Virus record (IMG/VR): IMGVR_UViG_3300010316_000035
Span: 1 to 28,325 of that record
Source of the DNA: a virus
DNA: 28,325 nt
Direction: 5' to 3' (one strand)
Under the pieces are notes generated by a model. The model ran no database searches. It was not told the DNA's origin and worked only from the letters and a program-made list of their open reading frames with translations. Position numbers and translations under genes: made by a program. Below, in pieces: positions 22,754 through 28,325 of the stretch (within the stretch, counting starts at the first letter, position 1; every line of letters starts with the position of its first letter).

Positions 22754-23398
22754 TTAACTCACCTTATACCATTCTGTTCCGCTGTTTGTATATCCTGGTT
22801 GATTTATAAGTACATCGCAAACCGTATAACTACAATCAAAAGGACATTGATCACACACCACTGTTCCGATTGATCCACAAGTACAAGGGAATGCACCTCC
22901 ACAGCCGCACTGACCGTTTGGTGGACAGTTTCCTGGGCATGGACCTGCAACGCAATAGCAGTTACCACCTTCTAATCGGCAGTTGCAACTTGTATAACAT
23001 GTTTGTGGAACTGTTCTGCAAGAATATGTATATGCCTTTCTTTCCATAAAGTCTGCGGCTGAAGCAGGAGATGAAGCGACATACCTTGCAACTACGCTAA
23101 ATCTTGCATTAGCGCTACTCAGGGTATACCTTCCTGTAGAAGTGTTTAGTGTAGCAGTTCCTGATCCAGTAATCAATGTCGCTTGATAGACTAGTGTGGG
23201 GTCATAATTTGTTATGTTGAATACTCCAGTGGAAATATACCCCATAACTGGGGCTGGAGGTGGACTACCAAAAGTTGTTGTTCTCCACATACCATCTATC
23301 TTAGTAAACGTTTGAGCGACAATCTTCCATTGATTATCTACCTTGGTATATACGATTGATGGAGTTTTCCACAAATCACTTATTTTTATTCCAGACAT
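22754..23398 (-). CDS. Fibre-module protein with a 16-cysteine C-terminal domain
   Basis: This 214-aa protein starts MSGIKISDLWKTPSIVYTKV. Residues 12-42 hold two strands of the form Y-x-K-V-D-x-x-W-K (TKVDNQWKIV and TKIDGMWRTT). After a Pro-rich linker (SPPPAP) comes an Ig-like domain at about 52-120. Residues 127-194 carry 16 cysteines, for example TCYTSCNCRLEGGNC and PCPGNCPPNGQCGCGG, with much Gly and Pro. The spacing suggests a disulfide-knotted or metal-rich fold. Disulfides would form after lysis, so a virion-exposed position is plausible. I start at ATG 23398, which overlaps the previous stop as TAATG; a start at 23416 is less likely. I do not recognise the cysteine domain. Confidence 0.72.
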   Translation of the reverse strand: MSGIKISDLWKTPSIVYTKVDNQWKIVAQTFTKIDGMWRTTTFGSPPPAPVMGYISTGVFNITNYDPTLVYQATLITGSGTATLNTSTGRYTLSSANARFSVVARYVASSPASAADFMERKAYTYSCRTVPQTCYTSCNCRLEGGNCYCVAGPCPGNCPPNGQCGCGGAFPCTCGSIGTVVCDQCPFDCSYTVCDVLINQPGYTNSGTEWYKVS

Positions 23399-24603
23399 TA
23401 GATATATTTCACCCACACGTCGCCATTAACCCCGTTAACAACGGTTGGGTCTGCTGTAGAAATAAACATCTGTCTTACACCCGAACTTCCTTCTCCGACT
23501 GGGGAAACAACATCAAGTGTTCCTTGAATTATGGTGTTTTTAGAAAGAGTTAATTCTGTACTTGTTGATTTAATGTGAGCGAATTCATTGGTGTCTGCTG
23601 AATCAACAAATTGTAAATAAGAACTTCCCAAGGCATCTCCAATAATCCTTAGCCCACCCGTTGAACCTTGGTTTGGAGATTTTGCACGAATGATTCCGTT
23701 TGCAGTAATGTCTCCCGTGGTAGTCATGCTTTGACTAAGGTTTAGGTTAGCACCATTAAGATCTCCTAGCGCTGTAATATCTCCTGTTGCCTCTATGGTT
23801 CCTGTTGTATTTAAGGTTCCGTCTACCGTTAAGTTTTTGGTATCAGTTGATCCAAGAATGTTTACGTCACCCTCAAGGGATGAATCGTTTTGAACTACCA
23901 AACCAGTTAATCCAGATAAGGTTGCCTTGACAGCAAATATTTCTTCTGCATTCAAGTCATCTGATAATTGCAACGTGTTTACAGTTGCTTCTCCAGTTAT
24001 GTCAATGTTCTGGACAACAATGTCTGGTGCATTTAATGTTCCAACGCTGTCTACATATGCCAATGCTGTTCCTGAATTGTTCTGCCACTCTTGAAGATTT
24101 TGAGTTTGTCCAGTTACCCCACGAACTGTAATACCCTTGTTGTCACCACTTAAACTAATTGGTAAAGCGGTAGATGTTGGGATCACTGTTGATCCAATAG
24201 AAATGTAACCAGCAAATGCAGCAGATCCAACGTTGCTAATCAATGCTACATCTGAGACTGTTCCTGTGTTTTTTTGCCATCTTTGCAATGATGCTGTTTG
24301 GTTTGCTACACCTCTAACAGTTAAAGGAACTACAACTGATTCTTGAGAAACTATTACGTTTGGTCTTGCAGTAGAGGATGTTTCTTCGATGTATACATTT
24401 GCCAAACTAGATATTGTGCTATCTAAACGAGATATATCTTCATTAAGATCAATGATATGCCTCTCCATACTTTGAGGCTGTAAGTTGTTTCCATTGTAAA
24501 TTGGCGTGCCATAATGATACATCTGCAAGGCTTGCTCTATAGAAGCATCGTCTGAAAGAGATGGTATTAACGTCTTATAGATTTGACCAATTTCTTGAGG
24601 CAT
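23398..24603 (-). CDS. Tail fibre protein with duplicated internal motif
   Basis: This 401-aa protein has an N-terminal attachment-type segment (GQIYKTLIPSLSDDASIEQA, then LQMYHYGTPIYNG), a short helical segment (ERHIIDLNEDISRLDSTISS) that could trimerise, and a long beta-repeat shaft. Residues 95-115 and 159-179 share TVRGV-x-x-QT-x-x-LQ-x-WQ-x-N-x-GT. A run of short strands follows (DGTLNTTGTIEATGDITALG), typical of triple-beta-helix fibres. The C-terminus (SGVRQMFISTADPTVVNGVN) reads like a conserved fibre tip segment. It overlaps the next gene by one base. Its promoter motif overlaps the stop codon of the gene before it. Confidence 0.82.
   Translation of the reverse strand: MPQEIGQIYKTLIPSLSDDASIEQALQMYHYGTPIYNGNNLQPQSMERHIIDLNEDISRLDSTISSLANVYIEETSSTARPNVIVSQESVVVPLTVRGVANQTASLQRWQKNTGTVSDVALISNVGSAAFAGYISIGSTVIPTSTALPISLSGDNKGITVRGVTGQTQNLQEWQNNSGTALAYVDSVGTLNAPDIVVQNIDITGEATVNTLQLSDDLNAEEIFAVKATLSGLTGLVVQNDSSLEGDVNILGSTDTKNLTVDGTLNTTGTIEATGDITALGDLNGANLNLSQSMTTTGDITANGIIRAKSPNQGSTGGLRIIGDALGSSYLQFVDSADTNEFAHIKSTSTELTLSKNTIIQGTLDVVSPVGEGSSGVRQMFISTADPTVVNGVNGDVWVKYI
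24067..24321 (-). repeat. Two copies of a VRGV/QT/LQ/WQ motif in the fibre gene
   Basis: Copy one is encoded at about 24259-24321 and copy two at 24067-24129, 21 residues each. They read TVRGVANQTASLQRWQKN and TVRGVTGQTQNLQEWQNN and so keep the same key positions. Confidence 0.7.
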
Positions 24604-24623: not shown

Positions 24624-24632
24624 ATTATATCA
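24624..24632 (-). promoter_or_regulatory. Extended -10 promoter TGATATAAT overlapping a stop codon
   Basis: The minus strand reads GTGATATAATCG. The TAA at 24625-24627, inside the hexamer, is the stop of the upstream gene. There are 20 nt to ATG 24603, including GGTGAT as ribosome site. Confidence 0.6.
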
Positions 24633-25203
24633 CGGAAATGGTGATTCCTACTGTGACAAGACCTGTATAAGGAACCCAAGACCCAAGTAAAAACCTCGTT
24701 GCCCTTGTGTCAAGAACCAATTGGCTGTACTCTGGTTGAGGGATTCTCTTTTGTTGTAAGTTAATAATAAAAGGGTCTGCGATAATTGGAGTCAGTTGAA
24801 CTACATATTTGTCAGTATTGACAATTAAATTATCAGATGTGATATCTGCAATGGGAATGGAAGTACTAGCCAAACCATTTTCAAATTCAATTTGAATGTT
24901 ATTTGAGTAAATAGAAGGTTGCAATCTAACCGCTTCTACCCAAGAAATAACGTTGTTCTGCCCAACCTGATAAACATACAACCACCCATATCTGGATGAA
25001 GTTGATGAATTGATAAAAAAGTCACCAATTTGAATTTGTTCTGTTGCTGGAATTACCCCAAAGTTATTTGGATCTCCTGAACCAACAAAGAATTTTGATC
25101 CACGCTTTCCAGTTGGACCTATGTCTGTTTGAAGTTCTACGTTTGAAATTGGACCAAGAACTAAAAGATCTTCTGAGTCAAGAACAATGTCAAAAATATT
25201 CAT
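24625..25203 (-). CDS. Fibre-module virion protein with short collagen-like segment
   Basis: This 192-aa protein begins MNIFDIVLDSEDLLVLGPIS. It has a short GPTGKRGSKFFVGSGDPNNF segment near residue 29, a collagen-like patch followed by a FVGSGDP turn as found at the start of many fibre and tip domains. A Trp/Tyr-rich beta part follows (SSRYGWLYVYQVGQNNVISW). The C-terminus has a beta-strand ending in GLVTVGITISVI. Its start overlaps the preceding stop as TGATG. It is most likely a tail-tip or fibre-attachment component. The fold is not identified. Confidence 0.68.
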   Translation of the reverse strand: MNIFDIVLDSEDLLVLGPISNVELQTDIGPTGKRGSKFFVGSGDPNNFGVIPATEQIQIGDFFINSSTSSRYGWLYVYQVGQNNVISWVEAVRLQPSIYSNNIQIEFENGLASTSIPIADITSDNLIVNTDKYVVQLTPIIADPFIINLQQKRIPQPEYSQLVLDTRATRFLLGSWVPYTGLVTVGITISVI

Positions 25204-25553
25204 CAGGTTACGCCCTCAACGATAGCAACTGACCCATTTAGCAGGGTGTAAACTACGTCGGGGTCAGTAAGTGATGTGATTCTAACATCATAAAAATATG
25301 TTTTTGTTGAATCAAGTTGGGCTGCTACGCTTGGAGTAAGTCTTGCAATTACTGAGTTTTCTGAAAGAATTGACGCTTCTCCAAAAATAGTTTCTCCAAT
25401 AGGACCACCTCTTTGCGGAGCCAATTTAAAAGAAACAGAATACAAAACGTCTGTAACTATAAAAGGGCTGCCAGCAGAGGTTCTTGGCTTGATGAGCATC
25501 TCATAGGTGTCACCTTTATAATAATTAATGTTGTGGGTTGCTGGAAATGCCAT
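25203..25553 (-). CDS. Small beta-sandwich virion protein of the fibre module
   Basis: This 116-aa protein reads MAFPATHNINYYKGDTYEML at its start and then alternates strands (VLYSVSFKLAPQRGG, TKTYFYDVRITSLTDPDVVY). The YKGDTYEM-type start and overall pattern are like Ig-like upper-baseplate or tail-fibre connector domains. It overlaps the next gene by one base (TGATG). TGGTATAAT lies 6 nt before the ATG and no ribosome site fits between, so a leaderless mRNA is predicted. The function is inferred from its setting only. Confidence 0.68.
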   Translation of the reverse strand: MAFPATHNINYYKGDTYEMLIKPRTSAGSPFIVTDVLYSVSFKLAPQRGGPIGETIFGEASILSENSVIARLTPSVAAQLDSTKTYFYDVRITSLTDPDVVYTLLNGSVAIVEGVT

Positions 25554-25570: not shown

Positions 25571-26542
25571 TTAGATTGCTACGCGAGTTATAGCAGATTT
25601 AATAGTTATTTGGTTAATCTCAGCATTGGTTGCTGTTGCATATATCTTTATGATGTTATCTTCATCAAGGGTGGGAACCAAGGTTGCCTCTGCCGCCCCA
25701 TTAGATCCATCAACTATAGAGTATTCGTTTACATGAACATCTACTCCATCCCACATCACCATCATCTTAAAGGAGGTCTTCTTTATTCCTTGATTAACTT
25801 GAACTACATAATCAACCGTTGTAAATTCTTCTGTGTCAAATGAATCTATTGTGATTGGGACATTGCTGATATTTATTGTTGCAGAACTTGTTGCTAAAAG
25901 AGATTGTGGTAGTTTTACTCCAACAAATTGTGGTGTTGCTTCAGAGTGAATATCTTGTGGCAAAGAAAGAATTACATCCCTTGCTTCTGTTCCTTCTCCA
26001 GTAACTATTACTTGGTTTTCTGTTCCAGTGATAGTTTCAACATAGTCTCCAGTTGTATCTGTGCCCAATGCAACACTATCTGGCTGAATTGTAACGTTAA
26101 TGGTTGTGTCACCAAGATTAGTAATGGTTGCAGATCCAGCAACATCTCCTTCAATTGTAATTAGTGGGTCATTTACATTGAAATTAAGTTTTCCAGTTGC
26201 ATCGCTGTATGTTACTTCAATTCCGCTTTCAGTGTTTCCTTCAACCATACCCCCAACAACATCTTGAACATCTTCTGTAAAGTTTGGAAGAGTTGCGGTA
26301 GTGTGATTATGACTGTCGTCCTGAACAGTTACTTGTATAAGACCGTTACCAGAACCAGAAACATCTCCTGTAAGAGTTATAACTTGTTCGTTATAGTTTA
26401 GGCTGTTCCAATCAGTAATCCCGTCACCAATCTTGAAACGAGTTGTATTTGACTCATAGCCAAACTCTCCAAGACTGAGAACGGGATTTGCTGAAGTCCA
26501 CTGAAGAGATGTTCCTCTGCGTAACTTAATCCTTGTTGCCAT
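25571..26542 (-). CDS. Tail fibre protein with Mtd-like N-terminal domain
   Basis: This 323-aa protein opens with MATRIKLRRGTSLQWTSANP, then VLSLGEFGYESNTTRFKIGD and GITDWNSLNY. This is the N-terminal module shared by many tail fibres and by the major tropism determinant of Bordetella phage, used to attach to the virion. Residues 55-76 and 128-155 form two related blocks (ITLTGDVSGSG and ITIEGDVAGSA). Residue 200 onward is a shaft-to-tip transition (EATPQFVGVKLPQ). The C-terminal 110 residues are a beta domain (IIKIYATATNAEINQITIKS) with no lectin-type variable region. TGATATAAT lies 6 nt before the ATG. Confidence 0.85.
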   Translation of the reverse strand: MATRIKLRRGTSLQWTSANPVLSLGEFGYESNTTRFKIGDGITDWNSLNYNEQVITLTGDVSGSGNGLIQVTVQDDSHNHTTATLPNFTEDVQDVVGGMVEGNTESGIEVTYSDATGKLNFNVNDPLITIEGDVAGSATITNLGDTTINVTIQPDSVALGTDTTGDYVETITGTENQVIVTGEGTEARDVILSLPQDIHSEATPQFVGVKLPQSLLATSSATINISNVPITIDSFDTEEFTTVDYVVQVNQGIKKTSFKMMVMWDGVDVHVNEYSIVDGSNGAAEATLVPTLDEDNIIKIYATATNAEINQITIKSAITRVAI

Positions 26543-26741: not shown

Positions 26742-27044
26742 CTACCCCAAAAAGTGTTTGGCAATTGCGGTAATTGCAAGGATGGACCACAAGATGTTAA
26801 ACCAAATAAGAGTTGGTATTGTCTTTACGGTAGATGACCAGATTAAAGATAAACTAGAAAGCAATGCTAAAACATATAGCCACCAAATCTGAGTATCAAA
26901 AAGTAGTCCAGGAATAATAATAATTGCTTTAATTACAAAAGCAAAAAACTCTACAGTGTTTGCAGTATTCCAATAACTTTTTTCAAACATTGATTTTAGT
27001 GCAATTGCCCAAGCGAAGTGTCGATGTTTATCGACATTGATCAT
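26742..27044 (-). CDS. Small membrane protein with three predicted segments
   Basis: This 100-aa protein starts MINVDKHRHFAWAIALKSMF. Hydrophobic segments lie at about residues 31-48 (EFFAFVIKAIIIIPGLLF), 52-70 (IWWLYVLALLSSLSLIWS) and 77-97 (TLIWFNILWSILAITAIAKH). Size and topology would allow a holin, yet no lysin gene lies nearby and the soluble N-terminus is long, so this remains open. AAGGA lies 5 nt before the ATG, 8 nt after the previous stop. It is followed by the 64-aa gene after 2 nt. Confidence 0.68.
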   Translation of the reverse strand: MINVDKHRHFAWAIALKSMFEKSYWNTANTVEFFAFVIKAIIIIPGLLFDTQIWWLYVLALLSSLSLIWSSTVKTIPTLIWFNILWSILAITAIAKHFLG

Positions 27045-27052
27045 AGGATTCC

Positions 27053-27487
27053 TTAGTTAGAGGGTAGAGGGACGTATTCTTTCTTTTCGGTATCCCAAAT
27101 CTTGATACCGTCCAAATCAAATGAAGGAGACTTCCATTCATTCAACTCAAAGTCAAATACATAATAGTTGGGATTTTCTGTCCCAAAGTCAACACTTGGC
27201 AACAAGCGTGGGATGGATGGGCGATAAATAACGCCAATCTTTAGTGATTCAAGGTCTCCATAGTTCACTCCGTTAATGGAAAATGTCCACATAGCCTTTT
27301 GAACACTATCTTCTTCATATTCTACATAATGCTCTTCATAGTTTACCCAATATGAATGATCTGAGTTTTCTGGAGAGATTACTTCTTTGTTCTCATCCAA
27401 ATTTTCTTCAACTGCTGGGTTGATGGATGAGAATTCAAAAATAGTTCCGCTATCTCTCTTTACCCTAAAATATTGCTTGTTTGTCAT
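27053..27487 (-). CDS. 144-aa acidic protein next to the halogenase, function unknown
   Basis: The protein starts MTNKQYFRVKRDSGTIFEFS and is acidic and aromatic, with segments such as SYWVNYEEHYVEYEEDSVQK and IPRLLPSVDFGTENPNYYVF. Predicted structure is beta-strands with a disordered acidic loop near residues 25-45. It ends EKKEYVPLPSN. It is the first gene after the halogenase-like gene, with its own -10-like motif and AAGGTGAT ribosome site. I do not recognise a family. A partner of the halogenase or a virion component are both possible. Confidence 0.65.
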   Translation of the reverse strand: MTNKQYFRVKRDSGTIFEFSSINPAVEENLDENKEVISPENSDHSYWVNYEEHYVEYEEDSVQKAMWTFSINGVNYGDLESLKIGVIYRPSIPRLLPSVDFGTENPNYYVFDFELNEWKSPSFDLDGIKIWDTEKKEYVPLPSN

Positions 27488-27517: not shown

Positions 27518-28325
27518 TTAGTCAGCATCCTTAAAGAATCTGTCTGTAAGATACTTGTACAAAGATGGTGCATTCTCTGCATTCCTCTTCCACTTTGCCT
27601 TACGAAATTCCCAAAGAGATGCCGCTTGGTTAGCAACAGAATATGGATCAATGTTTCCATTAAAAGAGTCTTGTTGTACCCTAGACTTATTCATCATATT
27701 AAGATTCATTCCAGTTGCAACGTATGTGATTCCAGCCTGACCTACTGGGTGAGACCAGTTATCAAGGTATCTATAGGCTAGATCATAAAATCCTTGCGCC
27801 TTAAAGACATATGGGCTGTACATTTCGCTTGGATTGTCGGCAAGGGAACCATTCTTAATGTCTCTCCAGTATTCAGTGTCATCTCTGTGAGAAAGAAGGT
27901 AGTGAAGAGATACAAATCTTGAGAATCCCTCAAACATGGCACGAGTTGATGAGTTATACATATCTCTGTCAAATTGACTAATGTCATCTCTTTCAAGAAT
28001 ATCTATTAACTTAAAAAGGAATTCGTGAACACTGTAAAGTCCATTAGACTCAAGTGGTTCAATAAATCCAGCAGCAAGACCAATAGCACACACATTCTTT
28101 ACAAATGTTCTGTCGTGAATTCCAATCCTCATATCAATATACCTAAACTCAAGTTCATCTATCTCTTCTTGAGTTCTGGGAACCACCATTTTATCTGACA
28201 TGAGATATTGCTTAAACTCTTCTAAAGCCTCTTCCTTTGTAATAAACTTGGTTGAGTGAACATAACCCGCTCCTAGGCGGGAGTACAGTGGAATGTTCCA
28301 GCACCAACCGTTTCCAATGGCGGTA
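27518..28325 (-). CDS. Flavin-dependent tryptophan-halogenase-like protein, C-terminal 268 residues
   Basis: The frame is open to the right edge, so the N-terminus with the FAD GxGxxG motif lies outside. The visible part begins TAIGNGWCWNIPLYSRLGAG, which holds the GW-x-W-x-IP motif characteristic of flavin-dependent halogenases. About 85 residues further is VKNVCAIGLAAGFIEPLESN, the family's second hallmark, where GxxEPLES stands close to the active site and FAD. DTEYWRDIKNGS follows, as in bacterial tryptophan halogenases. The ATG at 28201 lies inside the domain and is not the true start. The enzyme would use reduced flavin, oxygen and halide to halogenate an aromatic substrate. A cyanophage relative (VirX1) has been shown to halogenate in vitro. 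The substrate here is unknown. Confidence 0.9.
   Translation of the reverse strand, partial: TAIGNGWCWNIPLYSRLGAGYVHSTKFITKEEALEEFKQYLMSDKMVVPRTQEEIDELEFRYIDMRIGIHDRTFVKNVCAIGLAAGFIEPLESNGLYSVHEFLFKLIDILERDDISQFDRDMYNSSTRAMFEGFSRFVSLHYLLSHRDDTEYWRDIKNGSLADNPSEMYSPYVFKAQGFYDLAYRYLDNWSHPVGQAGITYVATGMNLNMMNKSRVQQDSFNGNIDPYSVANQAASLWEFRKAKWKRNAENAPSLYKYLTDRFFKDAD

Follow-up and report, generated by a model that had tools for sequence, protein, structure and literature searches.

The 28,325-base IMG/VR virus fragment analyzed here (the window) very probably encodes a flavin-dependent halogenase of the clade that contains the cyanophage enzyme VirX1, with probable activity. Enzymes of this family put chlorine, bromine or iodine onto aromatic molecules. 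The enzyme is a fresh member of an already known kind, and the new lead is its partner gene, which we call c2 and which encodes a small membrane protein.

The halogenase gene and its relatives

The halogenase reading frame exits the contig at its right end, so that 268 residues with zero internal stops lie in the window, while the N-terminal ∼266 residues, including the FAD motif, the catalytic lysine and the start codon, lie beyond the contig edge. As far as the contig shows, a run of genes on the same strand begins with it and continues with proteins of 144, 100 and 81 aa and then an Mtd_N fibre protein, with successive gaps of 30, 8, −49, 2 and 17 nt. The position upstream of small proteins and a fibre module, as described in the initial annotation, is therefore confirmed. 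The features referred to below are:

27518–28324 (−): probable flavin-dependent halogenase of the VirX1 clade, C-terminal 268 aa (PF04820, phrog_2928)
28289–28315 (−): GNGWCWNIP, the family W-x-W-x-IP motif, with both Trp residues invariant in alignment A1
28037–28066 (−): FIEPLESNGL helix with the family glutamate, an invariant column (E358 in the numbering of L002, the nearest full-length relative)
27053–27487 (−): 144-aa protein, starting 30 nt past the halogenase stop
26742–27044 (−): c2, a membrane protein of 100 aa for which three long helices are predicted; a recurrent neighbour of phage halogenases
26545–26790 (−): 81-aa ORF with a GTG start and a 49-nt overlap with c2
25571–26542 (−): fibre-type protein with an Mtd_N domain (PF18454, 2e-10, plus tail-fibre PHROGs), the start of the fibre module
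24625–25553 (−): two small fibre-region proteins of 116 and 192 aa, present near the halogenase in L003 too

The window protein matches Pfam PF04820 at 2e-38 (132.8 bits against a cut-off of 21, profile positions 256–412 of 458) and phrog_2928 at 5e-54, and its matches to VirX1 and Th-Hal in the PDB, both at ∼1e-31, put the family relationship far beyond chance. These results agree with the enzyme family named in the initial annotation, and both motifs that it had reported for the C-terminal part are found at the positions listed. We take the glutamate of the FIEPLES helix to be the equivalent of PrnA E346. The gene has the same GC content as the remainder of the window (0.39).

A scan of viral contigs returned 29 relatives of the window halogenase, 46–77% identical to it. 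In alignment A1, comprising 22 proteins of which 21 include the N-terminal region, the GxGxxG glycines (G10, G12 and G15) and K75 are kept in all 21 sequences covering that region, and W273, W275 and E358 are kept in 22/22. K75 aligns with the VirX1 lysine that is numbered K79 in PMC8407142, the K75/K79 correspondence using an offset of 3 taken from the VirX1 chain numbering. Since dS is saturated between the window halogenase and its nearest relatives, selection was measured on other pairs: in five close pairs of relatives, with the window copy itself outside those pairs, dN/dS ranged from 0.05 to 0.15, and by this codon measure the pairs are under purifying selection. To place the enzyme structurally, we used L002, whose halogenase shares 67% identity with the window protein in the part that both cover. 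Its AlphaFold2 model (pLDDT 86) found VirX1 as the best Foldseek match (TM 0.90, E 7e-50), which gives a halogenase fold for L002 rather than for the window copy, and VIA-align superposed the model on VirX1 over 511 residues (rmsd 1.9 Å, Z 44.7), with other halogenases tying or slightly exceeding that Z over fewer residues.

Because the readable relatives keep the FAD motif, the lysine and the glutamate, and because close pairs are under purifying selection, the window gene is likely functional rather than decayed, as had been claimed from the motifs visible here, and we infer an intact N-terminus and catalysis for the window copy. That the gene is instead decaying, with its missing half broken and the enzyme inactive, is very improbable. 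The truncation at the contig edge does hide the N-terminal half, where a frameshift or a lost lysine is possible, and at the relative locus L210 (270–3285) a second halogenase carries an internal deletion and an in-frame fusion to the c2 membrane protein, but the visible 268 residues form an open frame that includes both motifs, and the relatives have their full length and low dN/dS.

To place the gene we built a quick 68-protein tree (SH-aLRT support, without bootstrap), in which syn9 gp42 stands in for VirX1. There L002 pairs with the window gene (99), and both belong to a 36-row clade (SH-aLRT 100) that also contains syn9 gp42 and that consists of 35 viral rows and one cellular row. The latter is a Deltaproteobacteria MAG gene (L031 5980–7581), 51% identical to L002; as its contig has cellular neighbours and the gene nests among the viral rows, it is likely a phage-to-bacterium transfer. 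The tree with VirX1 and bacterial halogenases that the initial annotation had proposed therefore sets the window gene in a clade that is viral but for one row, and the kinship to VirX1 is borne out both by this shared clade and by the fold match of the L002 model. Outside the VirX1 clade are the halogenases of DSL-LC01, HTVC008M, P-SSM2, Syn1 and the gut phage MT835646, some phage halogenases there being on long branches and of unsure placement, and halogenase genes seem to have been gained by phages more than once. L056 and L100, bacterial rows of the PrnA-like type, branch separately. MT835646 (L130) is an unverified human-gut phage scaffold; its two halogenases cluster with bacterial ones of the Caulobacter/Erythrobacter type, and it may be contamination or a prophage.

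Halogenases of free tryptophan carry the Trp4 motif in a group A or group B form (YYxxF..EF.NFW or YYHG..PYS; PMC8269204). The motif is absent from the window and from every viral row; its group A form is present in the bacterial controls L100 and L056, and the group B form had no control row. For this reason ‘tryptophan halogenase’ is merely a label here, and free L-Trp, the substrate that it implies, was rejected on the missing motif. Judged by motif content, the enzyme probably acts on something other than free tryptophan bound in the classical manner.

Gene neighbourhood and the c2 membrane protein

The adjacency to fibre genes noted in the initial annotation is real, but its use as a guide to the substrate is weakened by a comparison of related loci: relatives of the Mtd_N fibre protein have a halogenase within 4 kb in 1/80 loci, whereas relatives of c2 have one within 3 kb in 51/80, a sample picked by similarity to the window and including near-copies. 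The halogenase lies upstream or downstream of c2, abutting it in 48 loci and on the same strand in 50. In the remaining 29/80 it is beyond 3 kb or absent; when 19 c2 records without a local halogenase were checked, 7 had one elsewhere, among them every one of the five records above 40 kb. The partners of c2 comprise both VirX1-type halogenases (GVGEST/EPLESNGL) and a second type (GAGEGS/EPLEATSI), and on the tree the c2 label spans two distant halogenase groups with at least 11 changes on starred (well supported) branches, so that the pairing looks like repeated joining or loss and not one simple inherited neighbourhood. The halogenase is thus a mobile accessory gene whose steadiest partner here is c2, not the fibre. 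In other viruses, c2 occurs with no halogenase beside it, among replication genes and following one that is primase-like.

The nature of c2 itself was sought by several routes. It had zero matches in the isolate collection and nothing above noise in Pfam (best SdpI, 0.011), and every Foldseek match of its model (pLDDT 73) had E >2, pyruvate carriers and SemiSWEETs among them, which leaves a SemiSWEET-like reading made from the sequence unsupported. A limited literature search found no paper on the c2–halogenase association, which is weak evidence of absence. The 144-aa protein between the two genes gave zero Pfam or PHROG matches and zero relatives in the viral-contig scan, and a counterpart lies directly after the halogenase in L003. 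Collagen repeats (PF01391) were rejected as a general mark of the neighbourhood, being present in merely 6/32 records and zero times in the window. Further into the fibre region, the window protein at 22754–23416 is densely packed with cysteines along a stretch of its C-terminal half.

Other neighbours recur as well. In 16 records, 2OG-Fe(II) oxygenases lie within 8 kb of phage halogenases in 41/129 cases against 15.3 expected by rotation, a count reached in 0/20,000 rotations, in a sample that is mostly Kyanoviridae and in which the 2OG genes are clustered among themselves. In the 14 strongest matches among cyanophages, judged by positions, the phrog_7084 protein directly follows the halogenase, and it is also near it in the relatives L002, L003, L007 and L017; this steady neighbour of VirX1-type genes was not found in the window. 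At L114 5758–6543 and in its relatives, where it directly follows VirX1-type halogenases in cyanophages, phrog_7084 is DUF6065-like (1e-5), and its similarity to dUTPase is faint and not significant (E 0.6). L015 (6102–10804) and L027 (5346–10758) each have three tandem halogenase genes of two lineages; both are probably T4-like phages, to judge from a nearby homologue of the L007 tail sheath stabiliser, a protein of the T4 gp15 type. Proteins of phrog_2954 (L007 7234–7878), labelled ‘ferrochelatase’, occur among halogenases and 2OG oxygenases; they are oxygenase-type in appearance, and the label may be wrong.

Proposed chemistry and target

In the PrnA and RebH enzymes of this family, FADH2, O2 and halide yield hypohalous acid, which gets to the substrate by way of a tunnel and a lysine. 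By analogy with characterised relatives (PMC8407142), the window halogenase would convert FADH2, O2 and halide to hypohalous acid, which would travel along an internal tunnel to the catalytic lysine, and an electron-rich aromatic ring would then be halogenated with the aid of the FIEPLES glutamate. Host reductases would supply the FADH2. The flavin reductase that the initial annotation had suggested looking for did not appear: a family search for PF01613 found it in 0/16 related records compared with 13/14 control genomes, so that a phage-borne reductase of this family was discarded and the host enzymes are the likely source.

Phage halogenases have been listed for more than 15 years and, to our knowledge, the natural substrate is known for none of them. 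As a tentative first guess, possible rather than probable, the target would be an aromatic metabolite or an envelope-linked molecule of the infected cell, a choice ranked first on two grounds: the partner seen most constantly is a membrane protein, and carbamoyltransferases, glycosyltransferases and oxygenases accompany several of the relatives. A pathway version of this guess, in which the phage would encode a pathway that tailors a defined secondary metabolite or a surface glycan, the halogenase being one of its enzymes, we consider doubtful. Such a role was proposed for the halogenase, 2OG oxygenases, carbamoyltransferases and sugar enzymes of the jumbo cyanophage S-SSM6a (PMC7824862), and similar genes occur near some window relatives: a carbamoyltransferase in L002 and L018, 2OG oxygenases in L002, L013, L018 and L022, and, in L206 and loci related to it, a glycosyltransferase following the halogenase and c2, with a glycosyltransferase in DSL-LC01 also. 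Yet the S-SSM6a gene set was not found in the window, where the scan of proteins identified zero other tailoring enzymes, and 2OG oxygenases are absent from the L003 and L004 records. In the tree, S-SSM6a falls outside the VirX1 clade (by its S-SSM7 proxy, on a long branch).

Ranked second among the targets, as the main alternative, is modification of the fibre: the halogenase could act on fibre or adhesin proteins that the phage itself encodes, at their Trp or Tyr side chains, altering receptor binding or stability. The same-strand run into the fibre genes of the window fits this, as do the halogenases of several lineages that adjoin fibre, adhesin or collagen-like genes (DSL-LC01, S-SRM01, S-WAM1, S-CREM1, L003 and L006), the P-SSM2 halogenase beside tail-fibre assembly genes, and the excess of 2OG-Fe(II) oxygenases, which are possible protein hydroxylases, around phage halogenases. 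We nevertheless regard it as rather unlikely. That relatives of the window fibre have a halogenase nearby at just one locus in 80 argues against it, accessory genes gather in fibre regions anyway, ∼10/51 c2-linked halogenases lie between replication genes and others among recombination or clamp-loader (L011) genes, and the 2OG test draws mostly on one virus family with clustered 2OG genes.

The phage, known halogenases and implications

The fragment appears to derive from a probable tailed actinophage, as the initial annotation had supposed. Its PHROGs for capsid, protease and portal fit a tailed phage; the portal is 45% identical to those of Streptomyces phages, e.g. BoomerJR, and the ribonucleotide reductase is 63% identical to those of Streptomyces phages such as LilMartin. 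WhiB proteins (PF02467, 1e-16), which mark actinobacteria and the phages that infect them (PMC10611076), lie within 3 kb in 13/51 related halogenase loci. Taken at the level of these similarities, the host is likely actinobacterial. A search for structural RNAs and tRNAs in the window returned none.

A halogenase in such a phage is less novel than first proposed. The function of phage halogenases was termed speculative in 2010 (PMC2984593), halogenase genes are reported in 20/153 cyanophages (PMC10452541), and the idea that an actinobacterial or siphovirus-type phage would extend the group has precedents in the uncultured lake actinobacteriophage DSL-LC01 (OQ999401; PMC10611076), whose PF04820 gene lies close to genes for collagen-like fibres, and in the cyanosiphophage Mic1, with a hypothetical halogenase (PMC11237433). 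The DSL-LC01 enzyme belongs to another lineage (25% identical over 52% of L002). Its gene lies between the glycosyltransferase and the collagen-like fibre genes (L120 2148–9211).

The closest known system is VirX1 of cyanophage Syn10 (PDB 6QGM; close homologue syn9 gp42), which shares with the window gene its viral clade, the fold over the 511 residues of the L002 comparison, the catalytic lysine and glutamate conserved in the window relatives, and the absence of the Trp4 motif. It differs in being ∼35% identical to L002 over the full length, in coming from a marine T4-like cyanophage, and in that the neighbour of its syn9 homologue is the phrog_7084 protein rather than c2. VirX1 is reported to prefer iodide and to have a broad substrate range (PMC8407142). 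The bacterial enzymes PrnA, RebH, PyrH and Th-Hal have the same fold and catalytic motifs as the clade of the window gene, but differ from it in the Trp4 motif, and the PrnA-like rows hold a branch of their own.

With the window gene, the VirX1 clade gains a member from a probable actinobacterial phage, and, given the unusually wide range of VirX1, this clade is a source of new biocatalysts. For the biology of these phages, c2 offers a concrete handle, as a 100-codon partner gene that recurs beside halogenases of different groups. One reading, which we hold to be unlikely but worth stating, is that at least two distant viral halogenase groups were repeatedly joined to c2 in actinobacterial and other phages to form a two-gene unit that would halogenate or handle an aromatic compound at the host membrane, and that could serve as an undescribed weapon or shield.
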